From Parcubacteria group bacterium GW2011_GWA2_47_26 (GTDB lineage Bacteria > Patescibacteriota > Patescibacteriia > GWA2-47-26), in NCBI GenBank assembly GCA_001001705.1, contig LCOG01000012.1, forward strand, positions 1 through 40,399: 40,399 nucleotides of DNA, in the 5' to 3' direction. Position 1 is the first letter of the stretch. The number at the start of each line of letters is the position of its first letter. The notes under the pieces are model-generated. The model was not told the DNA's origin. It ran no database searches and saw only the letters and a program-made list of their open reading frames with translations. Positions 4,995 through 9,357 of this stretch are shown piece after piece. The position numbers were made by a program, and so were the translations under genes.

Positions 4995-5867
4995 ATGCAA
5001 GCCTATCTCAATCTCGTCCGTCACATCTTAGACAAAGGCGAACTAAAACAAAACCGCACCGGAATTGCGGCCTATACCATCGCCGGCGCCATGTTTGAGC
5101 ACGACATGGTCAAAGGTTTTCCTCTGCTCACCACCAAAAAAATGCCCTTTAAGATTGTTGCCACAGAACTGGAATTTTTTATTAAAGGCCTAACGGATAA
5201 AAAGTGGCTTCAAGAACGCAACTGCCATATCTGGGACGAATGGGCTAGCCCGCGCAAAGCGCCGTATGGCCACGACGAAGAATCAAAAAAACGCATGACC
5301 GAAGAGCGCGACCTCGGCCCAATCTATGGTTTTCAATGGCGGCATTTCAGCGCGTCCTATGAAAATTTTGACACCAATTACAATGGCCAAGGCGTGGATC
5401 AACTTACGCGCCTTATAACCCTGCTCAAAAATAATCCTAATGATCGCTGCATGATTGTTTCCGCCTGGAATCCTGTGGCGCTTCCGGAAATGGCCCTCCC
5501 CCCCTGCCACTACTCATTTCAAGTGACTGTTATCAACGGCAAACTCAATCTCCTATGGAGCCAGCGCTCCGTAGATACTATGCTTGGCTTGCCTTTTAAT
5601 ATCGCGAGTTACGCCCTGCTCCTCCATTTACTGGCCAAAGAAACCGGACTTGCCGAGGGGCGGCTGATTGACTTTCTTGGCGATGTGCACATTTACGAAA
5701 ACCACGTTGACGGCGCACGCGAACAATTAAACCGCGATCCCACCCTCTATCCTCTGCCGCGCATTGAAACTGATCCCTGGAACGGGATTTTAAACTGGGA
5801 AGCTCCGCATACCAAACTTCTCGGCTATACAAGTTATCCGAAAATTGAATTTCAAATTGCAGTATGA
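4995..5867 (+). CDS. thyA: Thymidylate synthase
   Basis: A 290-residue protein that makes dTMP from dUMP with methylene-tetrahydrofolate as carbon donor and reductant. The dUMP-phosphate loop begins at NRTGIAAYTI, the catalytic Cys is in ALPPCHYSFQ, and the following RSVDTMLGLPFNIASYALLLHL block and late folate-site residues are intact. The length is usual for ThyA. The product dihydrofolate needs the DHFR encoded at 8830, and dTMP is passed to the kinase at 9423. In this window those partners are separated from thyA by the DGR, whose reverse transcriptase stops two bases after the thyA stop on the other strand. Confidence 0.97.
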   Translation: MQAYLNLVRHILDKGELKQNRTGIAAYTIAGAMFEHDMVKGFPLLTTKKMPFKIVATELEFFIKGLTDKKWLQERNCHIWDEWASPRKAPYGHDEESKKRMTEERDLGPIYGFQWRHFSASYENFDTNYNGQGVDQLTRLITLLKNNPNDRCMIVSAWNPVALPEMALPPCHYSFQVTVINGKLNLLWSQRSVDTMLGLPFNIASYALLLHLLAKETGLAEGRLIDFLGDVHIYENHVDGAREQLNRDPTLYPLPRIETDPWNGILNWEAPHTKLLGYTSYPKIEFQIAV

Positions 5868-5869
5868 TT

Positions 5870-6943
5870 CTATTCTAGATCATGCCAGAACCAGTATGAC
5901 TGCAATACCTTTTGCCGCATCTTAAATGTGTTGCCATGCTGAAGCAATCCCAGATATGATTGTAATATCTCGTAAAGCGAGTGCGCTTGCAAACGACGCA
6001 TCATACGCCGCTTGGCCGCATCCCGAAGTACCCGATGATCGGGAAAATGCACCCAACCGAGGAAATCAACGCCGGACGCAAAGGTGTTGATCGTTACTTT
6101 GTTTGGGTGCAATTGAAGATGCAATCGTTCCTGTAAAAACTTCTCCACACTCGGTATTTGTGCTTCAAGCCATTCTCTATCATGATGCAAGAATACAGAA
6201 TCATCCGCATAGCGAATATAGTGTCGTACTTTTAAGCGATGCTTCACAAACCGATCCAATTCATTCATGTAGATGTTGGAAAACAACTGGGAGGTGAGGT
6301 TGCCTAAGGGAAGGCCTAGCTTACTGTCATTGCGAGGAGCCGAAGGCGACGCGGCAATCTCTTCATCGCGTGAGATCGCCACGCTCCCTTTGGTCGCTCG
6401 CGATGACACGGTAGCAAAACTTCTAATCACCTGCCCCAAAAGCCAGAGGATATCTTGATCGGGAATGTATTGCTTCAAAATACCGAAAATTACATCCTGA
6501 TCAATACTTGCAAAGAATTTTTTGATATCACACTTTAATACCCAGCAGGTGCGCTTATGATTGCGGCTCACCTTGTACGCCATGACACGGAAACGGTTGA
6601 ACGCTTTATGTACTCCCTTATCAATCCGGCATGAATAAGAATCTCCGATAAAGGTGCATTCAAAAAAGGGGTAGAGAATGCGGTAGATGGCGTGGTGTAG
6701 CAAGCGATCGCGGACTGGCGCGATATGGATAAGACGGCGCTTGGGATCCCAGATATGCCGTTCTTTGTAGTTGCCGTGCTGATAAACTTTGCTTGCCAAA
6801 TCCTCGCGCAGTGCTATGATATTGTCCATAAGGTTGCACGCAAACTCGCGTACATCCGGCTTGCCGCGCTTGCCGCATATAAATTCCTCCCAGGCTAAAC
6901 ATAAATTTTCTAGTGAAATAATGTCTTCAAATTTATGGCTCAA
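5870..6943 (-). CDS. DGR reverse transcriptase
   Basis: A 357-residue RT of the retroelement type that drives targeted mutagenesis: it copies TR RNA with errors at adenines, and the cDNA replaces the VR of a target gene. Visible motifs in order: an N-terminal block with LENLCLAWEEF and KPDVREF; motif 3/A, CDIKKFFASIDQD (138-150); motif 4/B, GLPLGNLTSQLFSNIYMNELD (210-230), with the LPLGNLTSQ signature typical of DGR and related RTs rather than the retroviral QG form; motif 5/C, IRYADDSVF (243-251); then a GVDFLGW block and a short thumb. There is no endonuclease or maturase domain. Residues of about 177-208 are an unusual insertion encoded by a palindromic repeat. The start is a TTG at 6943; upstream is in-frame poly-G and then a TGA, with no ATG. 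TR and target lie upstream on the same strand. Confidence 0.95.
   Translation of the reverse strand: MSHKFEDIISLENLCLAWEEFICGKRGKPDVREFACNLMDNIIALREDLASKVYQHGNYKERHIWDPKRRLIHIAPVRDRLLHHAIYRILYPFFECTFIGDSYSCRIDKGVHKAFNRFRVMAYKVSRNHKRTCWVLKCDIKKFFASIDQDVIFGILKQYIPDQDILWLLGQVIRSFATVSSRATKGSVAISRDEEIAASPSAPRNDSKLGLPLGNLTSQLFSNIYMNELDRFVKHRLKVRHYIRYADDSVFLHHDREWLEAQIPSVEKFLQERLHLQLHPNKVTINTFASGVDFLGWVHFPDHRVLRDAAKRRMMRRLQAHSLYEILQSYLGLLQHGNTFKMRQKVLQSYWFWHDLE
6326..6407. repeat. Palindromic repeat translated inside the DGR reverse transcriptase
   Basis: Begins GTCATTGCGAG and ends CTCGCGATGAC, the same family as 3386-3449. In the minus-strand reading frame it encodes about 30 residues (including SSRATKGSVAISRDEEI) between RT motifs A and B, with the frame kept. 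Confidence 0.85.
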
Positions 6944-6960
6944 TTGAATTCTTTTAACGT

Positions 6961-6973
6961 CCCCCCCCCCCCC
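6961..6973. repeat. Homopolymer of 13 C between RT and Avd remnant
   Basis: Thirteen consecutive C at the point where homology to the Avd-like protein begins abruptly. On the minus strand it is a G13 tract about 18 bases before the RT start codon. It may mark a rearrangement junction, may vary in length by slippage, or may be an assembly-sensitive spot. Confidence 0.8.
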
Positions 6974-6984
6974 TCATTGATTTA

Positions 6985-7206
6985 TTGGAAATAACCCTTA
7001 CTGCCAAATATACCAAGCGCGAGGAGAAATTGATAGTTCTAAATACCATAAGTCGCAAATTGGATAATCTGAAATTCTTTGTAACCGTGTTATGGGAGGC
7101 AAAAGGAGTTAGCCCGGCTAATTATGGTCAATTGGCGCAAAAACTCTCCAGCATAGGGACTATGCTCGGCGGCTGGACAAGGAAACTAACCTCGCCGCAA
7201 AAGTGA
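6985..7206 (+). pseudogene. Truncated Avd-like four-helix-bundle accessory protein, inverted relative to RT
   Basis: The 73-residue reading frame (TTG start; open in frame back to the poly-C tract with LIDLL before it) resembles the last two thirds of DGR accessory/S23-type four-helix-bundle proteins: a helix ending TLTAKYTKREEK, a helix with LDNLKFFVTVLWEAKG, a short loop, and the characteristic C-terminal LAQKLSSIGTMLGGWTRKL. Known members are about 110-130 residues and begin with a helix and a PRxxRFTLGDRI-like block, which are absent here. Avd normally forms a pentamer that binds RT and is needed for mutagenic homing. It usually lies on the same strand as RT; here it is on the other strand. 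I call it a remnant. A functional short form cannot be excluded. Confidence 0.7.
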
Positions 7207-7233
7207 ACTCCCTCGATTTGATCGAGGGAGTTC
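7205..7233. repeat. Perfect 13-bp hairpin between TR and Avd remnant
   Basis: Arms GAACTCCCTCGAT and ATCGAGGGAGTTC with a three-base loop. On the minus strand it begins about nine bases after the TR ends. It overlaps the stop codon of the Avd remnant by two bases, and no T run follows on the plus strand. It may be a structural part of the TR-containing RNA or a terminator (inference). Confidence 0.7.
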
Positions 7234-7242
7234 AATGAAGAG

Positions 7243-7372
7243 ACTCACTGACGACGAGGACGCCATAGTTGGAGTTGAGCTGGTTGCGGAAGTCGTTGAG
7301 GTTGAAGTTGCGGTTCGCGCCGTTCACGTTCGCGTAGGGCACGTAGACGTTGCCGTCCGGGTTCGTCCACCG
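7243..7372 (-). other. DGR template repeat (TR)
   Basis: Aligned to the VR at a constant offset of 490 bases. From 7251 to 7372 there are 15 mismatches. Fourteen are at T on the plus strand, that is at A in the coding-strand TR: 7276, 7281, 7284, 7285, 7293, 7297, 7302, 7303, 7309, 7315, 7329, 7350, 7351 and 7363. The fifteenth (7364) is a silent G-to-A in a Thr codon. Read in the target frame, TR encodes a run rich in Asn from AAC codons (for example NGANRNFNLNDFRNQ), as expected of a template built for adenine mutagenesis. The first 25 aligned bases (7251-7275) are identical in both copies. Similarity ends sharply after 7372. Confidence 0.96.
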
Positions 7373-7730
7373 AAATATATCAGATATCGTCCGTACCACC
7401 ACCCGTTGAGTGCTCTCCGGGTTGAATCTAATTTGAAGACGTTATCTCCCTAATATCTGATACCGAGTATCTTCATCATAGTCACTTCAATCTTGCCCTG
7501 CGGCAAGCCGTAACCGGCCACATTCTGAAGTTGAAATGGCGAGATTCTACCCGCCCAAGCCGTAACCGAGGCAGTATCGGTAAAATCTACTTCAGCATAC
7601 CAGAATTGAAAAAAATAGAAAAGACCCCCGCCCCTGTATTCACCTTGTGAGTGAAGCCGAGGGGGGGTCGAGGGAACTACGGATCGGACGATTGATGCCG
7701 AAGCGCCAAGTGTCCGAGTGACCAAGTTCC
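7373..7730. other. Spacer between TR and target gene, no clear gene
   Basis: On the minus strand a frame ending at 7450 contains a plausible protein C-terminus (FWYAEVDFTDTASVTAWAGR, later KIEVTMMKILGIRY), which I do not recognise. It has no start of its own and runs into the VR out of frame, so it could be a gene remnant. Positions 7623-7674 are a C-rich/G-rich stretch resembling the pyrimidine-rich repeat family. Inverted pairs AGGGAAC (7671-7677)/GTTCCCT (7726-7732) and CGGAC/GTCCG lie just past the target stop and could form the hairpin often found downstream of a DGR VR; this pairing is weak. Confidence 0.4.
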
Positions 7731-8309
7731 CTACTCGCTGACGACGAGGACGCCATAGTTGGAGTCGAGCCGGCCGCGGAAGCCGTAGAGGCCGAAGTCG
7801 CGGTACGCGCCGTTCACGCTCGCGTAGGGCACGTAGACGCGGCCGTCCGGGTATGTCCACCGCGAGTCCTGGCTGATGGCGAGCACCCAGCCCGGCCACT
7901 TCGCCACCTGTTCCAGGTGATCGTGCAGGAACCCGGCCAGGTCGCCGGTGTTGCCGAGGATGTGGCCCGCGGCCGTCAGGCGCACCGCAGCCTGCTCGCT
8001 CGTCTCGTTGTCGAGGTACGGCTCGACCCGGCACAACACCCGCCGGACACCGGTCCCCGCGAGCTTGAAGCGCTCGGGGGTGATGTTCGAGTTGATGTTG
8101 CCGAGGTTGCGCTCGCCCACGGCGCGCTTGATAAGCGCGACGAGGCCGAGCGACTGGTCGTAGGAGACCGGGTGCCACATCTGCGCGATGTGCTCGGCCA
8201 AGAACTTCTTGAGCAACGGGCGGTTGTTGGAGTCCGTCAGCGCAAGAAGCTCCTCATCCGTGAGGTCATGCATCAATCCTTCGAGAGAGCGTGCGGTTGC
8301 CGTTGCCAT
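7731..8309 (-). CDS. DGR target protein with variable C-terminus
   Basis: A 192-residue protein. Residues of about 1-145 are mostly helical (LTDEELLAL, RPLLKKFLAEHIAQMW, GLVALIKRAV, LAGFLHDHLEQVAKW) with no signal peptide or membrane segment. Residues 150-192 are encoded by VR and end in SNYGVLVVSE, a Gly/aromatic-rich tail like the ligand-binding end of C-type-lectin-fold DGR proteins. The fold itself is not proven here. The residues that differ from TR are 153, 157, 164, 169, 171, 173, 175, 176, 179, 180 and 182. I chose the ATG at 8309 because GGAAAGAAG precedes it at good spacing; a longer frame to 8354 lacks this. The gene is clearly GC-richer than its neighbours. The ligand and the job of the N-terminal part are unknown. 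Confidence 0.9.
   Translation of the reverse strand: MATATARSLEGLMHDLTDEELLALTDSNNRPLLKKFLAEHIAQMWHPVSYDQSLGLVALIKRAVGERNLGNINSNITPERFKLAGTGVRRVLCRVEPYLDNETSEQAAVRLTAAGHILGNTGDLAGFLHDHLEQVAKWPGWVLAISQDSRWTYPDGRVYVPYASVNGAYRDFGLYGFRGRLDSNYGVLVVSE
7733..7862 (-). other. DGR variable repeat (VR)
   Basis: The last 130 bases of the target gene, about 88% identical to TR. Differences from TR on the coding strand are 10 A-to-G, 3 A-to-T and 1 A-to-C, plus one silent non-A change near the 5' edge. The invariant block 7741-7765 at the 3' end would serve as the initiation-of-mutagenic-homing site. The next mismatch (7736 versus TR 7246) and divergence beyond it give the VR and TR distinct 3' boundaries, as in known DGRs. 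Confidence 0.95.
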
Positions 8310-8455
8310 GATCGTGCTTCTTTCCGCTCGTTTAAGAGCAGTACTCCCAGCCAATTGGCCAGAAGAAAAGCCGAGATTTCCCGGCCTTCTTGCGACTCAC
8401 TCGCAGAGAAGTGAGCCAAAACAAGACCAGGAATCCCATTTAAGGAGCACATTTT
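8310..8455 (-). promoter_or_regulatory. Structured leader of the DGR target mRNA
   Basis: About 140 untranslated bases between the promoter and the target ATG. On the minus strand AAGAAGGCCG can pair with CGGCTTTTCTT across a short loop, and CTCAC/GTGAG pairs lie just upstream. The Shine-Dalgarno-like GGAAAGAAG is outside the main stem. No known riboswitch is recognised. Confidence 0.4.
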
Positions 8456-8484
8456 ATCCTATCATATTTTGGACAAAATGTCAA
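8456..8484 (-). promoter_or_regulatory. Candidate promoter of the DGR target gene
   Basis: On the minus strand TTGACA (8484-8479) and TAGGAT (8461-8456) are separated by 17 bases. It overlaps, on the other strand, the candidate promoter of the NYN remnant. Confidence 0.55.
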
Positions 8485-8498
8485 GAGTTGTGTAGAAT
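8469..8498 (+). promoter_or_regulatory. Candidate promoter of the NYN remnant
   Basis: TTGGAC (8469-8474) and TAGAAT (8493-8498) with 18 bases between, 12 bases before the remnant's ATG. Overlaps the opposing target promoter. Confidence 0.4.
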
Positions 8499-8510
8499 GA
8501 TGAGAGTAGT

Positions 8511-8752
8511 ATGCAAAAGCCACTCCTCAATTACGCTTTTATTGATAGCCAGAATACGACAAGGCCATTATTGTTTCAGGAGATGGAGATTTTCATTGCC
8601 TTATTGAACATCTGGAAAAGCAGGGGAAGTTGCTCCAAATTCTTATCCCTAATCCTCGTAAATATTCCGCATTGTTGCGGAAATTTCGGCGTTATTTTGT
8701 ATATGTTGATAATCTTGCACAAAAATTAGGTAAAAACAAAGAGAGAGAGTAA
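8511..8752 (+). pseudogene. NYN-domain (LabA-like) nuclease gene with an internal deletion
   Basis: The first 15 codons read MQKPLLNYAFIDSQN, the start of a NYN/PIN-like domain with the first catalytic Asp. Reading then resumes in another frame as DKAIIVSGDGDFHCLIEHLE, continuing ALLRKFRRYFVYVDNLAQKL to a TAA at 8750-8752; this is the domain's second acidic motif and C-terminus. The middle (roughly 80 residues in typical NYN proteins) is missing and the join is out of frame, so no nuclease can be made. NYN proteins are single-metal RNases or related enzymes. The remnant sits between the DGR and folA. Confidence 0.8.
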
Positions 8753-8829
8753 CCTTCGGACGAACCTTAGGTGTGCCCTCTCATCGTGATATAGTAATCA
8801 TATCATACCCATAAAAACTGTCAAGAGCT

Positions 8830-9357
8830 ATGCTATCTCTTATCGCTGCAATATCAAAAAACGGAGTCATTGGCAAAGAGAACGCACTGCCTTGGTATTT
8901 GCCCGAAGACTTGAAACGATTTAAGCAAATCACCACTGGCAAAACCGTGCTCATGGGCCGAAAAACTTTTGAATCTATCCTGAAACGGCTCGGCAAACCG
9001 TTGCCCAACAGAAAAAATGTTGTGGTTACGCGTGATTCGGATTATTCTGTGGCTAAGCCACAAACCACTGGTGGTTTAGCCACATCAGTTACAATGTATC
9101 ACTCAATTGACGACGCACTCAAAGCGCACAAGGGAGAAGATATTATAGTCATCGGCGGCGGCGAAATCTACGCCCAAACCATTGATCGAGCTGACAAACT
9201 TTATACTACCGAAGTGCGCCAAGAAATCGAAGGCGACACCTTTTTTCCAAGGATCGATCCGGCCATTTGGAAAGAATCCGCGCGCGAAGATCATGAAGGA
9301 TTTTCGTTTGTAGAATACGTGCGAATTTATAACCCCCCTAGCCTCTCCTTAACTTAG
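8830..9357 (+). CDS. folA: Dihydrofolate reductase
   Basis: A 175-residue enzyme that reduces dihydrofolate to tetrahydrofolate with NADPH and so recycles the product of ThyA. Visible family blocks: IAAISKNGVIGKENALPWYLPEDLKRFK (substrate pocket with the acidic residue in the first helix), GKTVLMGRKTFES (NADPH site), LPNRKNVVVTRD, and VIGGGEIYAQTI. A short stretch after VVTRDSDYSV (KPQTTGGLATSV) is encoded by sequence with an internal inverted repeat (AAGCCACAAACCACTGG / TGGTTTAGCC). The last residues, NPPSLSLT, come from a pyrimidine-rich repeat that also provides the stop codon. AAGAGCT before the ATG is a weak ribosome site. Confidence 0.96.
   Translation: MLSLIAAISKNGVIGKENALPWYLPEDLKRFKQITTGKTVLMGRKTFESILKRLGKPLPNRKNVVVTRDSDYSVAKPQTTGGLATSVTMYHSIDDALKAHKGEDIIVIGGGEIYAQTIDRADKLYTTEVRQEIEGDTFFPRIDPAIWKESAREDHEGFSFVEYVRIYNPPSLSLT

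Follow-up and report, generated by a model that had tools for sequence, protein, structure and literature searches.

How can a cellular diversity-generating retroelement (DGR) keep mutating its target and avoid wrecking the good variants it has already made? Among the targeted hypermutators of bacteria, DGRs are the best known. For the slower turnover of cellular targets, Roux et al. (2021, PMC8144416) did not decide between two explanations, a control over the activity of the RT and selection acting on the target. A DGR cassette in the window (the whole stretch of DNA analysed here, 40,399 nucleotides from Parcubacteria group bacterium GW2011_GWA2_47_26) carries a 13-base homopolymer run where the 5' ends of its avd and rt genes face each other.

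Anatomy of the cassette and diversification of its target

The features of the cassette, in window coordinates, are as follows.

7731–8309, minus strand: DGR target gene (192 aa, start ATG at 8309)
7733–7862, minus strand: variable repeat (VR), the 3' end of the target gene, ending its 192-aa ORF
7671–7732, minus strand: predicted stem-loop directly downstream of the VR, weak (z −1.8)
7243–7372, minus strand: template repeat (TR), which pairs with the VR
7204–7234, minus strand: very stable hairpin (z −6.4) downstream of the TR, abutting the avd stop codon
6979–7206, plus strand: avd remnant (body of the Avd accessory protein), antisense to rt, first ~42 codons gone
6975–6977, minus strand: ATG upstream of the tract, fitting the rt frame when the run has 12 or 15 G but not when it has 13
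6961–6973, strand-neutral: run of 13 C (plus strand) or 13 G (minus strand), the proposed slippage tract
6935–6937, plus strand: conserved avd ATG, the complement of an rt His codon, fitting the remnant frame at 11 or 14 C
5870–6943, minus strand: DGR-type reverse transcriptase (357 aa from TTG 6943) with the YADD active-site motif and GLPLGNLTSQ
6320–6425 (limits approximate), minus strand: in-frame insert in rt just ahead of GLPLGNLTSQ, repeat-element-like

Three of these features, the avd remnant, the 13-base C/G run, and the in-frame rt insert, are absent from the original prediction for this locus. An Rfam search returns zero matches.

The TR and the VR align without gaps at an offset of 490 and with 88% identity, in agreement with the positions and the fixed offset first proposed. 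On the coding (minus) strand, they differ at 16 of 130 columns, and 14 of the 16 mismatches fall on TR adenines (ten A>G, three A>T, and one A>C). Adenine accounts for 31 of the 130 TR bases, and the probability of finding at least 14 of 16 mismatches at adenine is 1.4e-7. The other two mismatches are T>C at 7247 and G>A at 7364, the latter synonymous. The original prediction had counted 15 mismatches across 7251–7372; its 14 adenine changes and their breakdown stand, and its total omits the mismatch at 7247. A recount also reproduces the 11 altered target residues, at nine Asn codons, one Asp codon, and one Gln codon. The window element is a genuine DGR, and its target has been diversified by adenine-specific mutagenesis, as had been claimed. 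Searches of Pfam, NCBIfam, and PADLOC with the target gene product return zero matches. The AlphaFold model of the target has a pLDDT of 81.7, and its best Foldseek match is a C-type lectin, but with an E value of 0.03 and a TM-score of ~0.3.

The RT lies on the same strand as the target, as predicted. Its best match by sequence among solved structures is the RT of 8ub7 (1.3e-41), compared with 1.5e-16 for a group II intron RT. The 8ub7 record labels the protein merely as 'Reverse transcriptase'; we take it to be the RT of the Bordetella phage DGR. By sequence similarity, which is the basis of this class call in place of a tree with retron and group II RTs, the DGR reading holds against a grouping with retrons or group II introns, the outcome that would have spoken against the prediction. 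The search for more VR copies that was suggested along with the prediction finds no further TR/VR copies in the 842-kb draft genome, an assembly of 26 contigs that is ~80% complete.

The repeat between the avd start and the avd body

The window RT retrieves 80 Patescibacteria RT loci, most of which carry a G8–G14 run shortly upstream of the RT homology. The analysed set of 188 RT loci consists of these first finds, a sample of 380 genomes from the phylum, regions fetched from those genomes, and others; the sampled species are more than 5% apart. At 170 of the 188 loci, avd is antisense to and upstream of rt in a head-to-head arrangement; at 17, no avd is found; in phage BalMu-1, avd is co-oriented with rt. 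TR/VR pairs with mismatches mostly at A are present at 63 of 82 loci scanned, and the relatives with such pairs have a near-constant layout of VR, TR, antisense avd, and rt.

Close to its start, rt has a conserved His codon whose complement forms the usual avd ATG. That codon is CAT at 97 loci and CAC at one; elsewhere in rt, CAC accounts for 741 of 1809 His codons. The avd leader is open from this ATG to the tract at 75 of 77 loci, as against 13 and 14 of 77 for the other two frames. Ribosome-binding motifs ahead of the avd ATG are rare (4/89).

A simple repeat separates the avd ATG from the avd body at 130 of 165 distinct loci. It is a C7–C14 run at 112 loci and (CT)n, (GA)n, (CA)n, or (CAAT)n at 18. 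The different repeat units encode different amino acids, which argues against a role at the protein level or as a G-quadruplex. At the loci with no repeat, the avd body shares its frame with an ATG in 35 of 35 cases (28 as the sole reading, seven with an ATG in another frame too). At the 130 repeat-bearing loci, by comparison, avd is in frame at 30, out of frame at 45 and 53, and ambiguous at two (Fisher 4.6e-15 for the phase contrast among unambiguous loci). On the RT tree (FastTree, 140 columns, many weak forks), repeat type clusters, with 19 changes versus 48 when shuffled, and avd phase carries no signal, with 54 changes versus a shuffled mean of 52.6. Close relatives differ by one repeat unit: L048 (C12) and L061 (C11) are 80% identical and have equal flank lengths, and their phases differ. 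The IMG/VR contigs contain no near-identical Patescibacteria pairs in which tract polymorphism within a population could be read. Some in-frame start, nearly always TTG or GTG, lies within ~21 nt after the tract or before it at 45 of 94 out-of-frame loci, so weak expression of Avd in the OFF state is possible.

The control set comprises IMG/VR loci and phage DGR records. At 79 control loci, avd and rt point the same way, and at 77 of these the surroundings of the avd start are free of repeats. The two exceptions, L258 and L259, resemble each other around the avd start, which is immediately preceded by short G/C runs; the run of L259 lies beyond the stop codon that closes the preceding frame. 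Eight control loci have an antisense avd. The repeat is present in three of them, whose RTs are 57–62% like the first sample, and absent from five at 45–48%.

The rt start and the state of the window copy

An rt ATG follows the tract at 78 of the 130 repeat-bearing loci, and for this reason we reject the poly-G run as a switch of rt alone as a general rule. Fifty-four repeat-bearing loci, the window excluded, have no rt ATG after the tract. At 35 of these 54, an ATG-led frame that is codon-aligned with avd is open into the tract (one and two loci for the other frames). Among the loci with an rt ATG of their own, a leader of this kind crosses the tract at 8 of 75 (p = 1e-10). Because of this contrast between the groups, we take the rt start across the tract as probably real. 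The leader is often MPQQITLFE-like, and its ATG lies opposite Trp-His codons of avd. The other 19 of the 54 loci are without such a leader. The rt phase equals the avd phase at 30 of 30 testable loci; provided that both starts are real, the codon-aligned antisense geometry entails this equality. Slippage thus probably switches rt too in the subgroup to which the window belongs, to judge from these reading frames.

The window groups with the loci that have no rt ATG after the tract. The first possible start of its rt after the tract is TTG 6943, and rt has no in-frame ATG there because the 13-G run parts it from the ATG at 6977–6975. The avd remnant matches PF22296 (1e-5, profile positions 41–106) and NF033474 (8e-11), both below the curated cut-offs. 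Alignment with six relatives places a deletion of ~121–125 nt, the first ~42 avd codons, just past the tract. At a tract length of 13, the remnant is out of frame with its upstream ATG; avd needs 11 or 14, and rt needs 12 or 15 unless it starts at the TTG. The description of the cassette as 'complete-looking' therefore fails, as avd is truncated and rt has no in-frame ATG. Because the tract fits neither gene and the avd codons are lost, the cassette in its assembled form is out of phase and likely to be inactive, either switched off or damaged. Its past activity is shown by the TR/VR differences; its present activity is doubtful. The deletion also took away the rt leader, and with both this leader and the avd N-terminus gone, the window is a poor example of a joint switch.

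Two other bAvd-like matches in the genome (C5 and C4) have no adjoining RT. We read both by eye as S23-type four-helix proteins and reject them as substitutes for Avd. Five other genomic C/G runs of at least 9 bases were considered as signs of a phasome beyond this locus; a putative gene has one of them close to its 3' end, and the rest suggest nothing clear, so this idea was also rejected.

Proposed phase variation, its alternatives, and known systems

We propose, with a probability of roughly 0.8, that Patescibacteria DGRs of the window's type are phase-variable, repeat slippage switching avd and probably also rt in the window's subgroup. The DGRs concerned would form a CPR subtype in which avd and rt are head-to-head with their 5' ends overlapping in antisense. 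The predicted avd start is the ATG complementary to the rt His codon, and the simple repeat lies between it and the avd body. In living cells, slipped-strand changes in repeat length would shift the avd body into frame or out of it, so that some cells would inherit the mutagenic machine in an ON state and others in an OFF state. In the window's subgroup, the rt ATG would mostly lie within avd, upstream of the tract. Owing to the codon alignment of the overlap, a single slip would bring avd and rt into or out of frame together. Homing would be lost when avd is out of frame: in the reconstituted Bordetella phage BPP-1 system, Avd is needed for homing, and repair is ~1e-9 upon Avd inactivation (PMC12875486). 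The benefit may be bet-hedging, in which a good target variant is kept and the search reopened later. A lineage would search the sequence space of its target and then lock the result, with lineages using different repeat units at the equivalent site. A broader statement also seems likely, though we hold it less firmly, namely that Patescibacteria DGRs include a widespread class of heritable on/off switches of evolvability, in which one repeat in the codon-aligned avd/rt overlap flips both genes.

The mixed phases could instead arise from homopolymer errors in sequencing or assembly, and a MAG consensus over runs of G10 or more can, as a general matter, be off by one. However, C runs of 9 or fewer show an unchanged spread (17 in frame, 16 and 23 out), non-homopolymer repeats are likewise mixed, and errors could produce neither the repeat itself nor its fixed place, which leaves this explanation very improbable. 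We give equally little credence to decay, with out-of-frame avd genes as pseudogenes and the repeats as scars. The truncated avd of the window would fit decay, as would L102, yet L102 is the only repeat-bearing locus with a stop between the repeat and the avd domain. Moreover, avd leaders are almost always open, and out-of-frame bodies are as constrained as in-frame ones (median pN/pS of 0.22 for OFF-OFF pairs and 0.23 for ON-ON pairs).

Programmed ribosomal frameshifting or transcriptional slippage would supply Avd steadily with no switching at the DNA level, and G/C runs are in general known to be slippery for polymerase or ribosome. Such a mechanism requires a fixed frame relation, but all three phases occur independently of the tree, and di- and tetranucleotide repeats take the place of the run in some lineages. 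We reject it as quite unlikely, there being no fixed phase among repeat-bearing loci. The mixed phases, the lack of tree signal, and the equal constraint make a fixed frameshift or decay a poor fit, and reversible slippage fits them. Finally, the window may hold an ordinary CPR DGR with an incidental C/G run, a dispensable Avd or one supplied from elsewhere, and an rt that starts at TTG 6943. The RT body and the TR/VR are intact, the TTG is a possible start, and many relatives start rt past the tract. Against this, several types of repeat unit occupy the equivalent site across loci, phases are mixed only where a repeat is present, and the two bAvd-like proteins from elsewhere in the genome look to be of another type. 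We regard this reading as unlikely.

If phase variation is correct, avd and rt would provide a concrete, testable control of the kind the opening question asks for, a bet-hedging switch on mutation itself. Sequence by itself would then tell in which assembled genomes the DGR is in its ON frame. In most such cassettes, automated gene calls may report a missing or truncated avd. In the open-access papers searched, we found no report of DGR phase variation via a repeat tract.

The BPP-1 DGR (mtd-avd-TR-brt) shares with the window a TR, a VR, adenine-specific change, a DGR-type RT, an Avd-family gene (a remnant in the window), and hairpins near the repeats. In BPP-1, avd is co-oriented with brt and the TR lies between them (PMC12875486), whereas in the window avd is antisense and head-to-head with rt, the repeat tract lies in the overlap, and the TR lies past the 3' end of avd. 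The CPR-restricted DGR clade 2 of Roux et al. (2021, PMC8144416) is similar in being a cellular Patescibacteria DGR with a small target that has no known domain, a likeness of features rather than of tree placement. The main text of that study mentions neither avd nor a repeat tract.

The simple sequence repeat (SSR) contingency loci of Neisseria, Haemophilus, Campylobacter, and Helicobacter also have a poly-G/C or short-unit repeat near the 5' end of a coding sequence and mixed phases across genomes. As in those loci, the repeat here lies between the start codon and the gene body, the frame varies across genomes, and the body is intact and constrained. In SSR contingency loci, the frame decides expression; here, such an effect of frame would be expected by analogy. 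Those loci mostly switch surface or modification genes, whereas the DGR repeat would switch a targeted mutation machine, and in one subgroup a single repeat would control two overlapping antisense genes.

Tract length and other C/G runs

The length of the simple repeat between the avd ATG and the avd body is unequal between close relatives, or between two DGRs in one genome, as in the following pairs of analysed loci:

L048 versus L061: C12 and C11
L032 versus L034: C10 and C11
L156 versus L159: C10 and C12

The window's genome has six C/G runs of at least 9 in 842 kb, the longest of which is the window's run. A further C10 run of this genome (locus L199, 1700-1709) is close to where a putative gene for a membrane protein has its 3' end.

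avd start and the hairpin by TR

Shine-Dalgarno-like motifs are rare upstream of the avd ATG (4 of 89 loci). Because the sequence 5' of the ATG often resembles ATAATATC in these 89 loci, the avd message is possibly leaderless, although the same upstream stretch doubles as rt coding sequence. A structural feature is predicted in the interval that separates TR from the stop codon of avd:

7204-7234: very stable predicted hairpin (z -6.4)

This predicted hairpin could be a terminator of both transcripts, or part of the TR RNA.

Cassette neighbourhood

The cassette is flanked by the genes of thymidylate synthase and dihydrofolate reductase (4995-9357), and the related DGR of family member G002 (L202) has a different gene neighbourhood. 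Among the loci analysed, a close relative of the target occurs in L071 alone. Over 7800-8399, the G+C content of the target gene is 59-69%, far above the value of about 39-50% in its surroundings.

The rt insert loop

The window's rt carries an insert directly before the motif GLPLGNLTSQ:

6320-6425 (limits approximate), minus strand: in-frame insert in rt

In-frame inserts are likewise positioned directly before GLPLGNLTSQ in the rt of six other loci (L004, L008, L033, L103, L104, and L106). Differing inserts occupy the same loop in several relatives, and some are similar to dispersed palindromic repeats, e.g. ...DPRFHGDD. The loop seems to tolerate mobile repeat sequence. A comparable insertion of mobile repeats into other genes is known for the Rickettsia palindromic elements.
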